Below are positions 3,605 to 26,957 of a stretch of 40,672 nucleotides of DNA, piece after piece. Positions within the stretch are counted from its first letter, which is position 1. Every line of letters starts with the position of its first letter. The translations under genes and the position numbers were made by a program. The notes under the pieces were generated by a model. It saw only the letters and a program-made list of their open reading frames with translations, had not been told where the DNA came from and made no database searches. Origin of the DNA: Lachnospiraceae bacterium (GTDB lineage Bacteria > Bacillota > Clostridia > Lachnospirales > Lachnospiraceae); contig JAFUKJ010000105.1 of the NCBI GenBank assembly GCA_017467805.1, positions 1-40,672 of the forward strand, read 5' to 3'.

Positions 3605-5587
3605 ATGAGTACTGAAGAAGAAAATTACTTGGATAATTTACTGAAATCCTTAACCGAACCTGAAGAATCGGAAATGTTGGAAGAGACAGCAGAGGATACA
3701 ACATCAGCTATCGCAGATGTCGGGACAGAGACTATTACAACTCCCGAGATAGAAGAAATAAATATAGAAGAACTTCCTGATTTAGAAGAGCCTATAGCAA
3801 TAGAGGAGCTTCCTGATTTAGAGGAGCCTGTGGCGATGGAGGAACTTCCTGATTTGGAGGAGCCTGTAGCGATGGAGGAACTTCCAGATTTAGAGGAGCC
3901 TGTAGCGATGGAGGAACTTCCAGATTTAGAGGAGCCTGTAGCGATAGAGGAGCTTCCAGACTTAGAAGAGCCTGTAGCAATGGAAGAGGTTGCGGTTGAA
4001 GAATCTGTAGTTGAAGTGGATGAGCCACAGATTGTATCGTCAAGTAATGATACGGATGAGTTCAATTTAGATGACTTAGGTTTGGATGATATTGATTTGA
4101 ATAATATCGACCTCGATAATGTAAGTCTGGATTTGGATGATGCTGACTTTGCAGAGTTAACCTCTGCGATGGATGTACAGGATACTATGCCAGAGGAGCC
4201 AGTAGCGGAACCAACGTTAGAACCAGTAGTGATGGAAGAGACGGTGTCAGAGCCGCTTCCTAATTTGGAAGAAGCTGTTACGATACCTGAGGAGCCTGTG
4301 GCAATGGCAGAGGAGCCGACTGTGGATATTTCTGATTTAGATTTGGATTCTATAGACCTTACTACTTTGGATATTGATAGCTTAAATGGTGGCGGAGAGT
4401 CTACGCAGAGTCTTGCAGATTTGATGTCTGAGGAGACAGGAGCAGATGATGATGATATTGCTGATGTGCTGAATCTTTTAGATGATGATGCAGATATGGC
4501 AGAAATCGGAGATTTGCTTTCTAAGTCAGACAGTCATGAGCCTGTACAGGACGATATGATGGCGATGCTAAGCCAGATGGCAGATACAGAGGCGGAGAAG
4601 GTCAATGCCAGTGATAAGGCTTCAAATACAGAGACAGCAACCAAGAGTGCCGAGGATGTCGCCGTGGTAGCTGAGAAGGTAGAGAAGAAAAAGGGCAGAA
4701 AGATATTTAAGCCTGAGGTAGATGTCAATGCTTCTGTAGAGGAAAAGCCAAAGAAGAATGGTATTTTTGCAAAGATGTTTGCAAGCCTTACCGAGGAATG
4801 GGAGTCTGAACCAACCGAAGAGGAATTAAAGCAGGCGGCTGAGCAGAAAGCATTTGAGAAGCAGGCTGCCAAGGAAAAGAAGGAAGAGGAAAAGGCTGCT
4901 AAGGCTGAGGAGAAGAAGCAGAAGGCAGAAGAGGCTGCGGCGCTTAAGAAGGCGAAGAAGGAAGAAGCTGATAAGGCAAAGCAGGCGAAGAAAGAGGCCA
5001 AGGAAGCAAAGAGAGCTGCCGAGGAAGAAGAGGAAGCGAAAAAGGGTGGCAAGAAGCGTATTTCCAAGAAGAAATATGTGGTAGTTACCATCATGGCAGC
5101 TTCAATTCTGGGCGGAATACTGTTAGCATCAGAGCTTCTGAACTCCTATACGAACCGTATGGATGGTAGAAAAGCCTACTATGCAGGTAACTATAAGGGT
5201 ACCTACTTAGAGATGTACGGTGAGGAACTGGATGAATCAGATGCATTATTGCAGGCACGTTCTAAGGTAATTATGAAGATGCAAAGAAAGCTGGATTCCT
5301 ATAAGAATTATAGTAAGATGGGATATGAGCTTGAGGCATTGCATGCATTACTGGAAGGTCTGACTGTATATGATAATGTAAATCTTGAGGCTGAACAGTA
5401 TCAGGTAGCCGAGGAAGTAGAAGATATCAGAGCCGATATTTTGATGATTCTTAGTGCAAATTATGGACTGTCAGAGGAAAATGCTCGAGAACTTCTGCAA
5501 AATGAAGACGAAATTTCGTATACAAAAGCGTTAAATCATATTATAATGGGAACTGATAGTGAATTGGTTTCCAATGATATGGAATAG
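3605..5587 (+). CDS. acidic repeat protein with coiled coil and one membrane span
   Basis: 660 residues; I do not recognise a named family. The N-terminal two thirds is extremely acidic, with six tandem 12-residue repeats of the type ELPDLEEPVAME (about residues 56-127) and further DLDDIDL-like stretches. A Lys/Glu/Ala-rich, probably coiled-coil region follows (about 400-490), then a basic patch and one hydrophobic span (YVVVTIMAASILGGILL, near 494-514), and a C-terminal helical domain of about 145 residues. The basic residues before the span predict a cytoplasmic N-terminus and an outward C-terminus. Start chosen by the AGGAGGAATTATC leader. It lies between the sirtuin-like gene and hisH with no terminator between them. 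Function unknown; a scaffold or envelope role is only a guess. Confidence 0.85.
   Translation: MSTEEENYLDNLLKSLTEPEESEMLEETAEDTTSAIADVGTETITTPEIEEINIEELPDLEEPIAIEELPDLEEPVAMEELPDLEEPVAMEELPDLEEPVAMEELPDLEEPVAIEELPDLEEPVAMEEVAVEESVVEVDEPQIVSSSNDTDEFNLDDLGLDDIDLNNIDLDNVSLDLDDADFAELTSAMDVQDTMPEEPVAEPTLEPVVMEETVSEPLPNLEEAVTIPEEPVAMAEEPTVDISDLDLDSIDLTTLDIDSLNGGGESTQSLADLMSEETGADDDDIADVLNLLDDDADMAEIGDLLSKSDSHEPVQDDMMAMLSQMADTEAEKVNASDKASNTETATKSAEDVAVVAEKVEKKKGRKIFKPEVDVNASVEEKPKKNGIFAKMFASLTEEWESEPTEEELKQAAEQKAFEKQAAKEKKEEEKAAKAEEKKQKAEEAAALKKAKKEEADKAKQAKKEAKEAKRAAEEEEEAKKGGKKRISKKKYVVVTIMAASILGGILLASELLNSYTNRMDGRKAYYAGNYKGTYLEMYGEELDESDALLQARSKVIMKMQRKLDSYKNYSKMGYELEALHALLEGLTVYDNVNLEAEQYQVAEEVEDIRADILMILSANYGLSEENARELLQNEDEISYTKALNHIIMGTDSELVSNDME
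3770..3985 (+). repeat. in-frame 36-bp tandem repeat, six units
   Basis: Six consecutive 36-bp units (starts 3770, 3806, 3842, 3878, 3914, 3950), each coding 12 residues of the type ELPDLEEP[VI]A[MI]E. Units 3 to 5 are almost identical at DNA level, including third positions, so the array probably expands and contracts by slippage or recombination. Confidence 0.95.
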
Positions 5588-10039: not shown

Positions 10040-11425
10040 ATGAACATAAGAAAACTGTTTGGAACAAAGGATTTTTATAAAAAGGTCATTTTTATAACGA
10101 TTCCGATTATATTACAGAATGGTATTACGAACTTTGTTAGCTTACTGGATAACATTATGGTTGGTCAGATGGGAACTGACCAGATGTCTGGTGTGGCGAT
10201 TGTGAATCAGCTGATATTCGTATTCAATCTGAGTATATTCGGGGGAATTTCAGGAGCGGGAATTTTTACAGCACAATATTACGGAAGTGGAAATAGGGAG
10301 GGTGTCAGAGACACCTTCCGTTTTAAGCTACTGATTTGTCTGGCGATAGCCGTTATTGGAATAGCAATTTTATTAGGCTTGAATACGCCGTTAATCAGTA
10401 TGTTCCTGCATGAGGGGAGTGAGACAGGAGATGCGGCGGCAACCTTGCAGTATGCGAAGGATTACTTGACGGTAATGTTGATTGGCTTATTCCCGTTTGC
10501 GATTAACAATGCTTATACGAGTACTTTGCGTGAAACGGGAGAAACAGTGCTTCCGATGAAAGCTGGTGTTGTAGCGGTATTTGTGAATCTGATTTTGAAT
10601 TACATATTAATTTTTGGTAACGTTGGAGCGCCGATGCTTGGCTGCGTGGGTGCAGCGATAGCAACCGTGATTTCCAGATTTGTAGAGACAGCGATTGTTA
10701 TTATCTGGACACATACTCATAGGGAGAAGCATCCATTTATCGAGGATGCCTTTAAGCAGTTTAGAATACCTAAGGCTTTAATGGGCGATATCATTAAGAA
10801 GGGTATGCCTCTCATGATGAATGAGATATTATGGTCCTGCGGTATGACAATGTTGACACAGTGCTACTCTACCAGAGGATTGGCGACAGTAGCCGCGCTG
10901 AACATTAGTAATACGATTAATAACCTGTTCAACGTTATCTATATTGCGCTTGGCTCTACGGTAGCGATTATGATTGGTCAGCTTTTAGGTGCAGGTAAGA
11001 TGAAGGAAGCCAAGGAGCAGGATGCACAGTTGATTACCTTCTCTGTATTAAGCTGCTTTGTAGTAGGTGCGGGATTGATTGCGTTGTCACCTGTATTTCC
11101 ACAGCTTTACAATACGACAGATGAAGTGAAGGCACTCGCACAGCAGTTTATCTGTATTGTAGCTATTTTCATGCCTGTAAATGCATTTATTCATGCATCG
11201 TATTTTACACTTCGCTCGGGCGGTAAGACGATTGTTACATTCTTCTTTGATAGCGTATTCGTATGCTGTATCAGCGTTCCGATTGCTTATATGCTTGCGA
11301 ACTTCACGGCGATTCCTGTTGTGACCTTATATGTATTAGTATTAAGTATTGATTTGATTAAATGTGTGATTGGATTCATCCTTGTGAAGAAGGGTGTTTG
11401 GTTGCAGAATATAGTGAAAGCGTAA
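10040..11425 (+). CDS. MATE-family multidrug/solute exporter
   Basis: 461 residues with about 12 membrane spans in two internally similar halves. The start MNIRKLFGTKDFYKKVIFITIPIILQNGI and the LDNIMVGQMG segment are the signature of MATE (MOP superfamily) cation-coupled exporters. The gene begins 6 bp after lysA; its ribosome binding site (AAAGGA) is very close to the ATG, so it probably depends on translation of lysA. It ends at a strong terminator. The substrate cannot be read from the sequence; amino acids or cationic drugs are possible. Confidence 0.93.
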   Translation: MNIRKLFGTKDFYKKVIFITIPIILQNGITNFVSLLDNIMVGQMGTDQMSGVAIVNQLIFVFNLSIFGGISGAGIFTAQYYGSGNREGVRDTFRFKLLICLAIAVIGIAILLGLNTPLISMFLHEGSETGDAAATLQYAKDYLTVMLIGLFPFAINNAYTSTLRETGETVLPMKAGVVAVFVNLILNYILIFGNVGAPMLGCVGAAIATVISRFVETAIVIIWTHTHREKHPFIEDAFKQFRIPKALMGDIIKKGMPLMMNEILWSCGMTMLTQCYSTRGLATVAALNISNTINNLFNVIYIALGSTVAIMIGQLLGAGKMKEAKEQDAQLITFSVLSCFVVGAGLIALSPVFPQLYNTTDEVKALAQQFICIVAIFMPVNAFIHASYFTLRSGGKTIVTFFFDSVFVCCISVPIAYMLANFTAIPVVTLYVLVLSIDLIKCVIGFILVKKGVWLQNIVKA

Positions 11426-11453
11426 AAGTGTTGCCCTCGGGCAACACTTTTTT
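11425..11453 (+). terminator. intrinsic terminator after the lysA-MATE operon
   Basis: Stem AAAGTGTTGCCC / GGGCAACACTTT (11425-11436 with 11439-11450), in practice a GTGTTGCC stem with a CTCG tetraloop, followed by a T run (11448-11453). Confidence 0.93.
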
Positions 11454-11580
11454 ATGTAATAGGAAATTCCTATTACATAAAAAAGTAGCTCCGCGAGGAT
11501 GCACACGCAAAAGTAAGGAAAATGTCGCATAAATACGACGCTTTTGCGGCGCGGAATGTGCTTTCAGCACATTCTTTCTT
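11448..11580. repeat. structured inverted-repeat element, three hairpins
   Basis: Three consecutive hairpins fill this stretch. First, a perfect palindrome with 18-nt arms (11448-11465 and 11467-11484) around one base. Second, a nested structure: TCCGCG (11490-11495) with CGCGGA (11550-11555), inside it CGCAAAAG (11506-11513) with CTTTTGCG (11541-11548), inside that GTCG (11524-11527) with CGAC (11536-11539). Third, GAATGTGC (11554-11561) with GCACATTC (11567-11574) and a T-rich tail. No supported ORF. It resembles a dispersed non-coding repeat (REP or MITE-like); whether it is transcribed is unknown. Confidence 0.7.
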
Positions 11581-11678
11581 GTGTAGGAAAATATTAAATA
11601 CAGTCTCTGTATGCTAAAGAATGAATAAACAAGTTCTAATTTGTGCATTCGATGAGAGGTGTTTTTTTGTTTTGCTTA

Positions 11679-11687
11679 TGATAAAAT
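11679..11687 (+). promoter_or_regulatory. possible extended -10 promoter reading into the hairpin array
   Basis: TGATAAAAT (TG at 11679-11680, TAAAAT at 11682-11687) matches an extended -10. A clear -35 is not seen. A start about 7 nt later would place the 5' end roughly 10 nt before the first unit of the array. Confidence 0.35.
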
Positions 11688-11703
11688 GTTAGAGTGATGA
11701 TAG

Positions 11704-12000
11704 AAATACGGAGAAAATGAGGTGTAAGGTTGACAATATCCGTATTTTGAGTTGGTGGTAAGAAGAAAATACGGAGAAAATGAGGTGTAAGGTCGAAAAT
11801 ATCCGTATTTTGAGTTGGTGGTAAGAAGAAAATACGGAGAAAATGAGGTATATACTTGAAAATATCCGTATTTTGAGTTTGTGGCGAGAAGAAAATACGG
11901 AGAAAATAAGGTATATGGTCAAAAATATCCGTATTTTGCATTGGCGGACAGAACAGAATACGGCGGAAAAGAGGCATATGGTCGAAAATATCCGTATTTT
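11704..12000. repeat. hairpin array 1: five 63-bp units
   Basis: Five tandem units at an exact 63-bp period. Each has a left arm AAAATACGGA, a 26-nt loop, a right arm TCCGTATTTT and a 17-nt spacer. Arm pairs: 11704-11712/11739-11747, 11766-11775/11802-11811, 11829-11838/11865-11874, 11892-11901/11928-11937, 11955-11964/11991-12000. The right arm is identical in all five; the left arm changes only in unit 5 (one G-U-compatible change, one mismatch), while loops and spacers vary. Units 1 and 2 are nearly identical and divergence rises toward unit 5. This pattern suggests the paired arms matter. No flanking cas gene or integrase; function unknown. Confidence 0.95.
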
Positions 12001-12029
12001 AGATTTGGGCGAGTAGGAAAGAGAGAGGC

Positions 12030-12151: not shown

Positions 12152-12607
12152 TTGGAAATAATTGATTATTTTGATAGTGATAAAAAAATATATTGGATAA
12201 CCCAGATTGAAAGTTGTGATTGGAATGCTGCTAAATTATTGTCTAAATTATTGCGAAATCCTATTGAGTTTCTAAATGTGCTAGGAGATAACGGTAAACT
12301 CTTTATCTTGAAATATAATGACAAATTGGTTTCATTTGCTACATTAACACAAAGAGAGTGCATAAGGGAGGACTCATTATATCCGTGGATAGGATTTGTT
12401 TTTACAAGACCTGAGTATCGAGGAAACAAATATAGTAAAAAAATTATTGAGCATGCTTGTAAAGTGGCAAAAGAGCAAGGATACGATAGGGTATATATAG
12501 CGACTGAGCACGCGGGGGAGTTATATAAAAAATATGGATTTTTGTATAAAGAAAATATGTTAGACGTGTTTGGGGTAGAAAATCAAGTTTTTTATAAAGA
12601 TATATAA
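12152..12607 (+). CDS. GNAT-family N-acetyltransferase
   Basis: 151 residues with the GNAT core: a substrate-side beta-alpha region (residues about 15-60), FATLTQRECIREDSLYPWIGFVFTRPEYRG with the acetyl-CoA-binding segment RPEYRGNKYSKKIIEHA, and the closing strand YIATEHAGELYKKYGF. It transfers an acetyl group from acetyl-CoA to an amine; the acceptor is unknown. It starts with TTG preceded by AGAGGTAGAAAG; no better start exists. It stands alone, downstream of the hairpin array and upstream of a bidirectional terminator, and is more AT-rich than its neighbours, which may indicate recent acquisition. Confidence 0.88.
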   Translation: MEIIDYFDSDKKIYWITQIESCDWNAAKLLSKLLRNPIEFLNVLGDNGKLFILKYNDKLVSFATLTQRECIREDSLYPWIGFVFTRPEYRGNKYSKKIIEHACKVAKEQGYDRVYIATEHAGELYKKYGFLYKENMLDVFGVENQVFYKDI

Positions 12608-19552: not shown

Positions 19553-19701
19553 TTTCCCGACTGCTCAAGCAATTTAGTGGTTCCAGTCGGAAATGACTCG
19601 GTATTTTCTCCGACTGCTCAAGCAATTCAGTGGTTCCAGTCGGAAATGACTCGGCATTTTTCCCGACCGTTCAAATAATTTTTGCACTCTAGTCGGGAAA
19701 A
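19553..19701. repeat. hairpin array 2: three 53-bp units
   Basis: Three tandem units at an exact 53-bp period. Units 1 and 2: arms CCGACTG / CAGTCGG (19557-19563 with 19584-19590; 19610-19616 with 19637-19643) around a 20-nt loop CTCAAGCAATT[TC]AGTGGTTC. Unit 3 is diverged but still forms a perfect 10-bp stem TTTTCCCGAC / GTCGGGAAAA (19658-19667 with 19692-19701). Spacer text is AAATGACTCGG plus a T-rich stretch. No repeat-linked ORF. The array lies upstream of the MATE promoter, between divergent genes; function unknown. Confidence 0.92.
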
Positions 19702-21839: not shown

Positions 21840-24800
21840 ATGAGGGTTGTAAAGAAAAAGGGTTTGCATGCAAAGTCTGTAGGACACAGAGTGTTCGCGT
21901 GGATTTTGGCAGCAGCACTTGCTTTCTCATCCTGTCCGATTGCAGCGAATGCTGAGGAGGAGAGCGTACAGGCAGAGGAAGTCGTGGAAGTATCTGAGAG
22001 TATGCCAGACGAGATAGTGCTTGAGACAGTTGAGTTCATGTCAAGTGAGGCAGAAGCTGAGATGGCTGAGACTTTAGCAGGTGAGACAGAAGAAACGGAG
22101 TCTTCATTTTTTTATGAGGATTTTGGAAACGTTTCCGAAACCGTTACCGAAAGTGCTGAAAAAGACACTGTGGAAGTAATTGAAACAGCGGTTGTTGAAA
22201 CAGAAACTGCAACTGAGGCAGAAACTGAAACACAGACTGAAGCAGCAGTACTTAGTGTAGAGCCTGTGCAGGAAGCAGTTGTATTAGCAAATGAGGTAGC
22301 AACAGTAACCAAGACATGCCCGACCATTGGGGAGGATGGCAAGGTAACATTTTGGTTCTACGAAGAGGACGGCGTGGACTATAGTGAGGTCTATGTCAAG
22401 GGTTCATGGGTGAGTGACTGGAGTCAGTACTACTACATGACAGAAGATACAGAGCAGGAAAGCGTTTGGAGCGTAGAGGTTTTGCTTGCTCTTGATAAGT
22501 CTTACGAATACGGTATCGTTGCAGATGGTAACTGGAAGGGTGACCCGATGAATCCAAACAGCAACGGTAATGCGGAGATTCTGAGAAATCCAGTTTATAC
22601 AAGCGACGGAAGTGCGAAGCTTTATTATTATCCACAGGGCGATGAAAGTGTAACACTTCTCTATAAGACAGCAGATGCGGCAGAGTATCAGAGCATTGCA
22701 ATGACTAAGGACGGCTCACATTCAGCACTGCTATCAGCAGTAGTATCTGAGCAGGGTGAATATGAATATTGCTTTGAGGTAAATGGTACACAGAGTGCTG
22801 ACAAGAACTGTGTGGATGCTAAGTTCAGTATTTCAAAGCTTCCAGAGGATGACGCATCCGTAATGAGTCCTGTAATTAATGGTACAGAGGTTACCTTCAA
22901 TTACTATGGACCTACAGCTAAGAGTGTGAACCTGGCTGGCGAGATGAACGGCTGGTCATCATCAGCAGATGCACTTACTTATAATAGTGAAACAGGCTTC
23001 TGGTCTGTTACCAAGACCTTAGCACCTGGTAAATATGAGTATAAGTTTGTTGTAGATGAGAAGAACTGGACCTGTGACAGCAGAAATCAGGCAACAAGCA
23101 ATGGCAATAGTGTATTCTATGTGGCAGGGCTTGTATCAAAGACCTTGAATGTAGAGTCAGGACAGAGTGTAACATTGCCAGCAGAGCTTACATTATACGA
23201 TGCGGCAGGTAACGCAAGCAGTGTAGCACCTGTATACGAGATTGAAAGTACATATGCAGATGTATTAACTATTACAGATGGCGCAATTACAGTACCTGCA
23301 AGCTTTAGCAGCACATATTTCAAGGTGATTGCAAGCTACGGTGATTACAGTGTAGATATCTATGTTGATGTAATTGCAGCAATCTATAACTACACAATTT
23401 ATTACTGTGACGAAACACATCAGAGTACAGATACAGCTTCTCTTTGGATTTGGACTGACGGTGTAAATGGTCAGCAGTATTTCTTTGATGAGGCAGTTAC
23501 TTTAGATGATGGAAAGACATGGTTAAAGGCTGAAGTATCGGTTCCTTATACTACTTTAAATATTATTCCAAGAGCATATGCAGACTGGTCTTGGCAGGAT
23601 GCAGACAAGTACTTTGATAACAGTACTACTTTGGATAAGAATGCAGAGCTTTATCTTGTGAAAGGAGATAGCACTGTATATACTGAGCTTCCTGATTTAG
23701 AGGAGAAGGAAGGCAGATATGTATTAATCGAGTATAGCAGACCTGTTGGCGACTATGAAGGCTGGAATATTTACAGTTGGAACACAGGCTACGGCAGTGA
23801 GGTAACTGTGAACTTCGAAGAGATTGATGGCAAGATGGTTGCTTTTGTGCCTGTAGTTGATACAAAGGAGAGCATTTCTTTCTGTATGAGAAGAAGTGAG
23901 GAAGGCAGCGCTTGGGCTGAGAAGGATGGCGGTGACCATACAGCAGTGATTCCACTTGACCAGACAATCGTTAAGGTTCAGTTTGAGCAGGGAACAGGTG
24001 TTGTAGGCAATCTTCCTTACAATAACGGATATACCACAGATGTAGTAAATGGTAAGATTACTTTTACATATCGTGATGATAAATTATATAAGGCATATGA
24101 GGAAGAAGCTCTTGAGGGCAAGGTAGTGCTTGTCTTAGACGGCTCTGAGTATGTAATGTCTTATGATGAAGCAAACGAGAGATATACCTATACAGCAAAG
24201 CTTGAGAGCGGAAAGCATGCTTATGCATACAAGGTAGATGGACAGCTTATCATTGATAAGTATAATGATGAAACTGTTGAGGTTGAAGGTGTGACATATT
24301 CAGCATATGAATACATCACATTTGATGCAAAGCTTACTGCAAAGGTAACTCCTGCAAGTATTGACTACAATGACAATGCAGTATTGGAGCTTTCTGTTGA
24401 TGCAGGTGAAGATACAAATGCGATTGAAATAACAGAAGCATATGTTGATTTGAGTGCATTAGGTTTATCAAATAATCTCAAGCTTGATACATCTCTTATG
24501 GCAGGAACTATTGCTGTGAAGGATTCTATTGCAGTCGGCGAAAAGGAGCTTCCTGTTGTAGCAAAGGACCAGTATGGAAATATATACAAGACAACTGCAA
24601 ATGTGACTGTTACCCCTAGACAGAGCGCGGCAGATGATTTTGCTTGGGATGAGGCTGTTATTTATTTTGCAGTAACAGACAGATTCTTTGACGGAAATAC
24701 AGCAAATAACGATGCATATGGCACAGGAACCTATAATCCCGAAATGGGTTCTATGTATCATGGCGGTGACCTTGCAGGCTTAGAGGCGAAGCTTGATTAC

Positions 24801-26957
24801 CTGCAGGAGCTTGGTGTGAATACTATCTGGATTACACCAATTGTAGAGAATATCGAGGACGTATTAGCTTGCGATGGTTATGAAGGTCAGTATAGTGCTG
24901 GTTATCATGGATATTGGGCAAATGACTTTACAACCTTAAATCAGCACCTTGGTACAGAGGAAGAGCTTAGCTCGTTGATTGATGCAATGCATGCGCGCGG
25001 CATGAAGCTGATGGTAGACGTAGTATTAAATCATGCAGGCTATGGCGCAGAGGATGAATTTAATAATACTTATATTGAAGATACTAAGATGCTTCGAGAT
25101 AAGAGTACAACTGTTAGCGGAGATGAGCAGAAGGATGGTCTTTCAGGCTTGCCTGACTTCGTAACAGAGAACCCCGAGGTAAGAGCGCTCTTAATCGAAT
25201 GGCAGACAGCATGGGTAAGCAAGTATGATATTGATTACTTTAGAGTAGATACTGTAAAGCATGTTGAGGATACTACATGGAAAGCATTCAAGAATGCATT
25301 AACTCTTGTAGACCCTGATTTCAAGATGATTGGTGAACATGCGGGTTCAGGTGCAATTACCAATGCAGGTCAGTTAGGAACAGGTCAGATGGATTCTATT
25401 CTTGACTTTGATTTTAACGACAAGACACTTGCTTTTGTAAAGGGCGAGTTTAGCAATGTTGAGAGCTTCTTAGAGAGCAGAAATGAAGTGATTGATAACA
25501 CTGCTACAGTAGGAAGCTTCTTAGGAAGCCATGATGAGGACGGTTTAATGTATCGTATGATGCAGGGAACCAATAATGGCGGTCTTGGCTTTGATGAAGA
25601 AAAGGCTTATGATTTGATGAAGGTAGCTGCGTCATTGCAGATAACAGCAAAGGGACAGCCTGTTATCTATTATGGTGAGGAGCTTGGTCAGACAGGTGCA
25701 AACAACTGGCCATATCAGGAGAATCGTTATGATTTTGATTGGTCAATTGCGAATGATGAGAATGAGATGCTGACACACTATGAGACTTTGTTAGATATCA
25801 GAAATGAGTATTCAGAGGTATTTGCAAAGGGTGACAGAGCTACTGTGAAGCTTGATGAGAGCAATGGTGTACTGGTTGTCAGCAGAGCATATGCAGATGA
25901 GACATTATATGTAGGCTTTAATGTAAATCAGTCAGAGGCTAAGGAGGTAACTCTTCCATTAGAAGCAGGTAAAGTGTTTGTTGACTTATATAGCGGCAAG
26001 ACATTTGTAGCAAATGAGAATGGTGAGGTAGTAGTAACGATTCCTGCGGCAACAGATGGCGGTACAGTAATTCTTAAGGAAGATGTGACACCTGAAGAAG
26101 AAAAGCCTGAGGATAAGCCATCAGAAGAGGAGACATCATCAGAGGAGGAGACACCGTCAGAGGAGAAGACACCATCAGAAGAGGAGACATCGTCAGAGGA
26201 GGAGACACCATCAGAAGAGGAGACACCGTCAGAAGAGGAGACATCGTCAGAAGAGGAGAAGCCTTCTGAGGAGGAAAAACCTTCTGTAGATGACAAGCCT
26301 GTAATTGATGGTGGTGTTGAAACTAAGCCATCTCCAGTAGCAAAGCCAGTAGTAGTTACAAGACCTGTAGTAGTTCCTACATCTTCAACAAAGCAGGAGC
26401 CTGCATACATTAAGATGGATGGAACGGTTGTAACAGGCTGGAGAGATGTTATCAGAGAGTCGATTAAGGATGCTGAGGCAAATCGCGTTCCTCTTGCAGG
26501 CAGTGTGGCAGATGCAGGAGTACAGAGCCTGATAGTAGACATTATGCTTGGCGAGAATACGATTAAGACAATTCCGTCTTCTGTGGTTAAGGAAATGGCA
26601 GCAAGTGGTGCAAGCTTCAGATTCCACTATGGTAAGGATGCGGCGATAGCAGTAACAAGTACAGCCTTAGCAGAGGTGGCAGGAAGTCTTGATTTGGATA
26701 TCCTGGTAGATAAGGATATGGATTTTGGTCAGAACTTTAAGTCAGTAGTATTGAATCCTCAGAAGGATACAATTTTTGGCGTTAAGCTTGCAGCAGCAGT
26801 TTTATTAGGTGAGGAATATGCTGGAAAGCCTGCATATATTTATCATAAGAACCTGTTAACTCAGGATATTGAGTTGATTTCAAGCTGCATTGTAGAAGAG
26901 AATGGTACAATTGCTGTATCTGGAATTGATTATACAGATTTGGTTATTCTATATTAG
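21840..26957 (+). CDS. secreted multi-domain GH13 starch enzyme (alpha-amylase/pullulanase type)
   Basis: 1705 residues. Signal peptide (KKKG..., hydrophobic core, cleavage after ANA), then a Glu/Thr/Val-rich linker (about 40-150). Two CBM48/E-set-like starch-binding domains follow (VTFWFYEEDGVDYSEVYVKG; VTFNYYGPTAKSVNLAGEMNGW), then CBM41/pullulanase-associated-like domains (TIYYCDETHQ...; YSRPVGDYEGWNIYSWN). The GH13 catalytic barrel starts near residue 935 (AVIYFAVTDRFFDG) and has nucleophile D1137 (YFRVDTVKH), acid/base E1166 (MIGEHAG) and D1232 (FLGSHDED). A Ser/Glu repeat linker and a C-terminal domain of about 190 residues end it. No LPxTG motif. It degrades starch outside the cell; whether it cuts alpha-1,4, alpha-1,6 or both cannot be told. 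Start follows AATAGGAGGAGCAAC. Confidence 0.94.
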   Translation: MRVVKKKGLHAKSVGHRVFAWILAAALAFSSCPIAANAEEESVQAEEVVEVSESMPDEIVLETVEFMSSEAEAEMAETLAGETEETESSFFYEDFGNVSETVTESAEKDTVEVIETAVVETETATEAETETQTEAAVLSVEPVQEAVVLANEVATVTKTCPTIGEDGKVTFWFYEEDGVDYSEVYVKGSWVSDWSQYYYMTEDTEQESVWSVEVLLALDKSYEYGIVADGNWKGDPMNPNSNGNAEILRNPVYTSDGSAKLYYYPQGDESVTLLYKTADAAEYQSIAMTKDGSHSALLSAVVSEQGEYEYCFEVNGTQSADKNCVDAKFSISKLPEDDASVMSPVINGTEVTFNYYGPTAKSVNLAGEMNGWSSSADALTYNSETGFWSVTKTLAPGKYEYKFVVDEKNWTCDSRNQATSNGNSVFYVAGLVSKTLNVESGQSVTLPAELTLYDAAGNASSVAPVYEIESTYADVLTITDGAITVPASFSSTYFKVIASYGDYSVDIYVDVIAAIYNYTIYYCDETHQSTDTASLWIWTDGVNGQQYFFDEAVTLDDGKTWLKAEVSVPYTTLNIIPRAYADWSWQDADKYFDNSTTLDKNAELYLVKGDSTVYTELPDLEEKEGRYVLIEYSRPVGDYEGWNIYSWNTGYGSEVTVNFEEIDGKMVAFVPVVDTKESISFCMRRSEEGSAWAEKDGGDHTAVIPLDQTIVKVQFEQGTGVVGNLPYNNGYTTDVVNGKITFTYRDDKLYKAYEEEALEGKVVLVLDGSEYVMSYDEANERYTYTAKLESGKHAYAYKVDGQLIIDKYNDETVEVEGVTYSAYEYITFDAKLTAKVTPASIDYNDNAVLELSVDAGEDTNAIEITEAYVDLSALGLSNNLKLDTSLMAGTIAVKDSIAVGEKELPVVAKDQYGNIYKTTANVTVTPRQSAADDFAWDEAVIYFAVTDRFFDGNTANNDAYGTGTYNPEMGSMYHGGDLAGLEAKLDYLQELGVNTIWITPIVENIEDVLACDGYEGQYSAGYHGYWANDFTTLNQHLGTEEELSSLIDAMHARGMKLMVDVVLNHAGYGAEDEFNNTYIEDTKMLRDKSTTVSGDEQKDGLSGLPDFVTENPEVRALLIEWQTAWVSKYDIDYFRVDTVKHVEDTTWKAFKNALTLVDPDFKMIGEHAGSGAITNAGQLGTGQMDSILDFDFNDKTLAFVKGEFSNVESFLESRNEVIDNTATVGSFLGSHDEDGLMYRMMQGTNNGGLGFDEEKAYDLMKVAASLQITAKGQPVIYYGEELGQTGANNWPYQENRYDFDWSIANDENEMLTHYETLLDIRNEYSEVFAKGDRATVKLDESNGVLVVSRAYADETLYVGFNVNQSEAKEVTLPLEAGKVFVDLYSGKTFVANENGEVVVTIPAATDGGTVILKEDVTPEEEKPEDKPSEEETSSEEETPSEEKTPSEEETSSEEETPSEEETPSEEETSSEEEKPSEEEKPSVDDKPVIDGGVETKPSPVAKPVVVTRPVVVPTSSTKQEPAYIKMDGTVVTGWRDVIRESIKDAEANRVPLAGSVADAGVQSLIVDIMLGENTIKTIPSSVVKEMAASGASFRFHYGKDAAIAVTSTALAEVAGSLDLDILVDKDMDFGQNFKSVVLNPQKDTIFGVKLAAAVLLGEEYAGKPAYIYHKNLLTQDIELISSCIVEENGTIAVSGIDYTDLVILY
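22125..22136. promoter_or_regulatory. second LacI-type palindrome, inside the GH13 gene
   Basis: GGAAACGTTTCC, a perfect 12-bp palindrome with the same AAACGTTT core as the promoter operator. Centre-to-centre distance is 362 bp. It lies in the non-conserved linker-coding part, where codon choice is free. A repressor loop between both sites is possible. Confidence 0.5.
26110..26290 (+). repeat. Ser/Glu/Pro-Thr tandem repeat in the GH13 gene
   Basis: About eight imperfect 18-bp repeats of the type (P/S)SEEE(T/K), coding a flexible linker between the catalytic domain and the C-terminal domain. Near-identical codons (TCAGAAGAGGAGACA) suggest slippage and length variation between strains. Confidence 0.88.

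Follow-up and report, generated by a model that had tools for sequence, protein, structure and literature searches.

The window, by which we mean the whole 40,672-nt stretch of contig JAFUKJ010000105.1 from a Lachnospiraceae bacterium, carries an array of hairpin-forming units between two genes of the same strand, and a second array, with unrelated arms, further along:

10040..11425, plus strand: gene of the MatE family (PF01554), upstream of the array (ORF, Pfam)
11424..11451, plus strand: intrinsic-terminator-like hairpin behind the MatE gene, arms AAAAGTGTTGCCC / GGGCAACACTTTT
11591..11706, plus strand: upstream flank, also found beside the seven-unit array of contig C70 (by gapped alignment, with BLAST starting at 11631)
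11704..12008, plus strand: five-unit hairpin array, period 63 (TRF, sequence reading)
11707..11744, plus strand: core of unit 1, 38 nt, TACGG..CCGTA (core pattern)
11770..11807, plus strand: core of unit 2, 38 nt (core pattern)
11833..11870, plus strand: core of unit 3, 38 nt (core pattern)
11896..11933, plus strand: core of unit 4, 38 nt (core pattern)
11959..11996, plus strand: core of unit 5, 38 nt, the most divergent (mean identity to the other units 0.82)
12152..12607, plus strand: GNAT acetyltransferase gene (PF00583), downstream of the array (ORF, Pfam)
19553..19700, no strand assigned: second array, 53 bp (TRF, 2.3 copies, plus a third unit by eye)

As an earlier note on this DNA had described, the array consists of five units at an exact 63-bp period (copy-to-copy spacing 63, 63, 63 and 63; TRF period 63, 4.8 copies, 86% matches, 0% indels, score 419), and the unit reads as a 10-nt arm, a 26-nt loop, a second 10-nt arm and a 17-nt spacer, which add up to 63. 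The right arm, TCCGTATTTT, is indeed identical in all five units; units 2-4 have precisely AAAATACGGA as left arm, in which unit 1 replaces the first A by G. The accompanying claim that unit 5 mostly keeps pairing is only half right: of the two changes in its left arm (AGAATACGGC), one produces a G-T wobble and the other (A to C) breaks the pair. The spacers of units 1 and 2 are identical and the remaining ones similar, and A's follow inside both arms on one strand, giving the unit a polarity. The inverted repeat of the consensus unit was better than those of 60 out of 60 shuffles, plus-strand folding of three units gave z-scores of -2.2 to -4.8, and unit 2 folded at z -3.2 on the plus strand and -3.1 on the minus strand. 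ARAGORN found no tRNA in the window, an Rfam cmscan of the window returned 0 families at gathering score, and a permissive Rfam scan of the window placed nothing within 11704-12008; the same permissive scans over arrays of other genomes yielded two overlaps only, both at chance level (E 0.91 and 3). The ORFs overlapping the array (minimum 80 aa) lie on the minus strand only, measure 113 and 119 aa, and are mechanical.

Just upstream, the flank shared with contig C70 contains an extended -10-like motif, TGATAAAAT, at 11679-11687, which is present in the C70 copy as well and might act as a promoter element. The stretch from the MatE terminator to the array (11425-11592) is itself a dispersed repeat, possibly MITE-like: of the 43 matches listed between the window and the sister species G313, most fall there, and partial copies occur in the samples of the own and G313 genomes, with 0 in 288 kb of the array-poor congener G196. 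At 11446-11486, a perfect 20-nt inverted repeat with a 1-nt loop adjoins the MatE terminator; its permissive Rfam match as a microRNA, below threshold and on both strands, is surely due to chance. Elsewhere in the window, six 36-bp repeats (3770-3984) lie within a 660-aa ORF (3605-5587) without a Pfam match, and repeats of 18/36/54 bp (26118-26275) lie within a 1705-aa ORF (21840-26957).

The units belong to a dispersed family. One unit used as a BLAST query against its own genome gave 37 matches over several contigs, and a scan with the core pattern recovered 39 units at 10 loci (reversed control, 0), comprising eight arrays (of 5, 7, 5, 3, 3, 6, 2 and 6 units) and two singles; because this pattern fixes the arm letters, arm invariance among the 39 own units comes from the way they were selected. 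All 39 cores are exactly 38 nt long, other lengths having been permitted by the pattern, and the units are arranged head-to-tail, at a period of 63 bp in six arrays and 53 bp in two. In the 22 arrays of at least 4 units with 60 nt or more of flank on both sides, the core that diverged most was last in 10, first in 5 and internal in 7, a split that is suggestive only, and growth of arrays from one fixed end is not claimed.

The search of related genomes that the earlier note had proposed turned up arrays in the sister species G313 and in at least five metagenome-assembled genomes (MAGs). A family-level sample of 299 genomes contained three with matches, namely the own genome plus two others, each with a single match, and a pattern scan of genome contigs found tandem arrays in records of at least five other genomes:

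Horse_feces272, a Lachnospiraceae MAG: tandem arrays
Candidatus Pseudolachnospira avium, a Clostridia incertae sedis MAG: tandem arrays
UBA9736, a Lachnospiraceae MAG: tandem arrays
RUI574, a Lachnospiraceae MAG: tandem arrays, with units in both orientations
Candidatus Treponema equifaecale, Spirochaetota, the record being a MAG: tandem arrays

A covariance model built from 44 units made 53, 93, 21, 28 and 16 matches in these five genomes, in the order given, and within the genus it matched 2 of 39 genomes, the own genome and G313; a looser pattern gave 39 units in the own genome, 36 in G313 and 0-5 per genome in the remaining 37 (reversed control, 0-4). Some of the horse units score about equally in either orientation. 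The non-array matches listed in the genome-contig scan look mostly like chance singles, viral contigs produced 10 single matches and no arrays, and plasmids and phages had no match to the array unit.

Across these genomes, core length and spacing are tightly confined. Cores measure 36-38 nt in 246 of 251 units (sought at 34-40 nt), and start-to-start distances take few values (number of pairs in parentheses): 63 (23) and 53 (6) in the own genome; 84 (9 of 9) in Treponema; 94 (11) and 93 (1) in UBA9736; 53 (64), 52 (10), 51 (1) and 106 (2) in P. avium; and 62 (47) and 63 (5) in the horse MAG. The 12 distances of RUI574, where some pairs look like copies of each other, are 52 (1), 53 (3), 61 (2), 62 (1), 63 (2), 72 (1), 74 (1) and 75 (1). 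G313 has 63 (4) and 127 (1); a separate reading adds 63 (4) and 64 (1) at one locus and 63 (5) behind groEL. The distances thus cluster at 52-53, 61-63, 72-75, 84 and 93-94 bp, or about 5-9 helical turns. In the horse and P. avium genomes, when a core is one nucleotide longer or shorter the period moves by the same amount, which makes the spacer the constant part. Spacers between cores measure about 15-16, 25-26, 37-38, 47 and 57, and the centres of neighbouring arms lie some 20-21, 30-31, 42-43, 52 and 62 bp apart between units and 31-33 bp apart within units, all approximating multiples of 10.5. When repeats from 7 to 16 bp were tried, the best fit was obtained at 10.5 bp. Monte Carlo sampling gave P = 0.0012 (Rayleigh) for the five spacer classes, 0.00014 for the five period classes and 0.0004 when a misfitting distance of 81 was added as a sixth class, values that serve as guides, the classes having been grouped post hoc and arrays in one genome sharing descent. 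That misfit, behind prfA in G313, is 3 bp off a whole-turn value. The arms of most arrays thus all sit close to one face of the DNA helix.

The arms also change together. At the position just outside TACGG/CCGTA (-1/+1), 187 of 247 units hold a Watson-Crick pair where 67 are expected, and all four pair types occur; the arm covariation for which the earlier note had suggested a check is present at the end pairs. Mismatches at this position include 16 G-T (25 expected) and 38 A-C (38 expected). The 44-unit alignment has a standard -1/+1 pair in 36 of 44, and pairing fades further outward. An inner stem within the loop, convincing by eye in some units, was rejected, as halves swapped between arrays pair nearly equally well: observed pairing was 6.81 against 6.55 +/- 0.16 in the control, a value reached in 16 of 300 swaps; the horse set lay below its control and the five Treponema units above theirs.

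The closest comparison is with G313, whose GroEL is 99% and 100% identical to the own protein over two fragments. In all four neighbourhoods compared, G313 has arrays with arms other than those of the own genome (GACGG/CCGTC, TGGACC/GGTCCA and TTGTATATAT/ATATATACAA). Behind groEL, the period is 63 bp in both species, with T.A in 5 of 5 own units and G.C in 5 of 6 units of G313; one position further out, 5 of 5 own units have C.G, a pair that 4 of 6 G313 units have lost (A.A). Behind an ABC-transporter gene, six own units run at 53 bp (T.A in 6 of 6, C.G in 5 of 6) and five G313 units at 63 bp (G.C and A.T in 4 of 5), and CCGTA at the right end of the last unit is kept in both. The MatE gene upstream of the window array is followed in G313 by four units spaced 52, 52 and 53 bp, whose arms, TGGACC..GGTCCA, are unrelated. 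Behind prfA, where the own genome has three units at 63 bp, the lack of any TRF call in G313 had hinted at an empty site; this is ruled out by three AT-rich hairpins of 37 nt (L376, 4115-4283) with the arms TTGTATATAT..ATATATACAA, one arm carrying a change. They are spaced 81 and 51 bp, a set that fits whole turns badly, and their stretch holds 11 perfect 9-bp arms (cores 34-43 nt) against 0.06 in shuffles. Both arms change between the sister species, which disposes of the idea that the right arm is a special invariant part. TACGG hairpins behind groEL occur in the own stretch alone, with 0 in 29 congener stretches, and 131 kb of congener loci contained no three-unit chain of 6-nt arms of any sequence.

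A scan for tandem and inverted repeats over 329 kb of the own genome, 266 kb of G313 and 288 kb of G196 uncovered arrays with unrelated arms, running at 52, 53 and 62 bp. The second array of the window has arms TTCCCGACTG / CAGTCGGAAA that form 9 of 10 pairs, where 2 of 60 shuffles did as well, and sits in a divergent gap, between a MatE gene and a sigma-factor gene. Two further own arrays share a period of 62 bp and lie in opposite orientation on two contigs:

G000:C11:383-548 (L325): GGTGTAC/GTACACC array, 62 bp
G000:C15:9176-9402 (L329): GGTGTAC/GTACACC array, 62 bp, reaching nearly to the contig end

The core measures about 33 nt in a 52-bp array of G313, whose arms are AAAGACCAA/TTGGTCTTT. 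The arms of a 53-bp G313 repeat (L367) were no better than shuffles (14 of 60), and the tandem repeats of G196 (45, 48 and 78 bp, multiples of 3) held no inverted repeat clearly better than shuffles (10-47 of 60).

Placement was assessed at 58 loci with genes called by a custom script. No array lies inside a called gene, the 39 own units included, and of the 47 loci with a gene upstream, 37 have that gene on the same strand as the array. For the 33 arrays with both neighbours known, gaps were co-directional tandem in 20, antisense tandem in 7, convergent in 6 and divergent in 0, compared to 75 tandem, 17 divergent and 9 convergent among 101 array-free gaps of the same loci, so that the 33 classified arrays avoid divergent gaps (0 of 33 vs 17 of 101); the array at 19553-19700, not among these 33, is the exception. 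Within the 150 nt upstream, 13 of 49 arrays have a terminator-like hairpin on their own strand and 4 of 49 have one on the opposite strand; downstream, one faces the array in 2 of 37, and by eye some arrays begin directly after such hairpins. The 85 immediate neighbours share no common function: they span 150 Pfam families, the commonest with just 3 members, and a shared neighbour gene was rejected.

Cumulatively, the arrays form a family with cores of 36-38 nt whose inverted arms vary in sequence but mostly remain complementary; the units of any one array are similar, and arrays lie between genes. In place and form the family resembles REP/BIME clusters, which likewise are short palindromes, many per genome, extragenic, regularly clustered and species-specific in sequence, and the own genome indeed has many dispersed extragenic palindromes (39 units at 10 loci, none in predicted genes). 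We would nevertheless not file it as a member, because regular alternation, a GTAG-type end and an associated Y1 transposase were not found. REP/BIME units alternate in orientation, whereas own units run head-to-tail and those of RUI574 are mixed; the loop inside the arms is large here (about 24-28 nt), and spacing steps are near helical turns. One account gives a usual REP copy number above 100, against 39 units in the own genome, and a GTAG-type 5' end as a REP feature (PMC2817692). No constant GTAG precedes the core in own and G313 units. PF01797 is the Y1 (RAYT) transposase, an enzyme family associated with REPs; it has no match in the own genome (95% complete) or that of P. avium, and matches at 9 places in four of the five other array genomes. 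Eight of these nine loci, scanned with about 1.5 kb of flanks, held no convincing unit (best E 0.11), and with the absence from two array genomes this led us to reject the transposase as a common partner.

Iterons and clustered parS or operator sites are tandem protein-binding repeats phased by helical turns. The arrays share with them the tandem, helix-phased layout and differ in being dispersed over the chromosome beside unrelated genes, and no replication or partition family is among the 25 listed of the 150 neighbour Pfam families. CRISPR arrays are similar in their regular repeats, of 36-38 nt here, with spacers, and in the divergent last unit of some arrays, but CRISPR spacers are non-repeated, whereas here the spacers themselves are repeated. 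No cas cluster was found among the 10 proteins neighbouring the window array when searched against PADLOC-DB, the sole match being a weak Csa3 (E 0.00047) on a protein that Pfam calls TrmB. The intergenic TAACTGA repeats of Beggiatoaceae are dispersed, reported from distant lineages and credited with a possible role only (PMC4679880); they are short direct heptamer repeats, whereas the present units are palindromic. We found no description of such arrays in searches of the open part of PubMed Central, and looking for the terms within PMC12306157 gave no hits.

What the arrays do can be weighed from this evidence. We see about an even chance that they are a REP/BIME-like dispersed family serving, most likely, as phased docking sites for a putative oligomeric DNA-binding protein. 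The arrays would act as double-stranded DNA, on which a symmetric, oligomerising protein would assemble near gene ends, also touching its neighbours, with chromosome organisation or a block to read-through as the perhaps resulting outcome; renewal by unit duplication or conversion would carry changed arms and near whole-turn changes of the spacer through an array. Double-stranded DNA and a symmetric binder are favoured because the spacing is near whole turns, the arms change symmetrically and there is no preference for G-U.

That the units are instead a selfish REP-like hairpin element, moved and amplified as single-stranded DNA by an HUH-type or other enzyme and devoid of a host role, seems fairly unlikely. 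In its favour, the family is dispersed, patchy (2 of 39 genus genomes by the model) and intergenic, the window and C70 arrays have flanking sequence in common, unrelated arms at the same place in G313 could be fresh insertions, and palindromy is retained while sequence changes. The mobile-enzyme search, which covered PF01797, speaks against it in the own and P. avium genomes, as do the eight Y1 loci of other genomes that lack a convincing unit, and a selfish element does not require whole-turn spacing. A selfish origin of the REP kind would, however, be compatible with docking.

Of the two functions proposed in the earlier note, structured RNA and binding sites on DNA for a dimeric protein, the second gains more, from the 10.5-bp multiples, the lack of a G-U excess and the upstream terminators in 13 of 49. 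Arrays acting as RNA, in the form of tandem 3' or 5' UTR hairpins that bind a protein or steady the transcript, are in our estimation improbable, and the idea is kept alive by the strand preference (37 of 47) and by hairpin potential: window units fold well (z -2.2 to -4.8, three units, plus strand), end pairs covary, and an extended -10-like motif lies just upstream in both the window and the C70 copy. Yet G-U/U-G combinations (16) are no more frequent than A-C/C-A (38) where the end pair covaries, pairing in the inner stem is marginal at most, a terminator-like hairpin precedes the array within 150 nt in 13 of 49 cases, Rfam gave no match at threshold in the window and only chance-level ones in permissive scans, and an RNA role would leave the 10.5-bp steps unexplained. 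That a chance palindrome was duplicated in tandem by neutral local events, the outcome that the earlier note would have accepted against a function, is hardly credible and is refuted as a full account: slippage does expand tandem repeats and end units are often the most divergent, but the array is no local duplication because its own genome has 39 units in eight arrays and two singles, and the family is dispersed across genomes, recurs as arrays in records of two phyla, and keeps a near-fixed core length and clustered spacing.

The docking of a protein on double-stranded DNA faces difficulties of its own. The 81-bp misfit in G313, the lost outer pair behind groEL, the divergent-gap array at 19553 and the core of about 33 nt all count against it, although the misfit and the switched arms at that fourth locus pull in opposite directions. 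Arms that differ between arrays of one genome do not suit a single sequence-specific binder, and the polarity of the unit and the strand match of 37 of 47 suit RNA or a strand-specific action and are left unexplained by docking. A wider claim, which we advance tentatively and would not rate as probable, is that helix-phased palindromic docking arrays occur chromosome-wide in Clostridia and a Treponema and serve one or more putative oligomeric binders with fast-evolving specificity, such that between sister species arms switch and spacing jumps by about a helical turn while place and geometry are kept. If true, the double helix, and not just the letters, would be constrained between genes in these bacteria; sister species would provide natural swaps of arms and spacers at the same locus; and the role of palindromic repeat clusters at gene ends would become directly testable.
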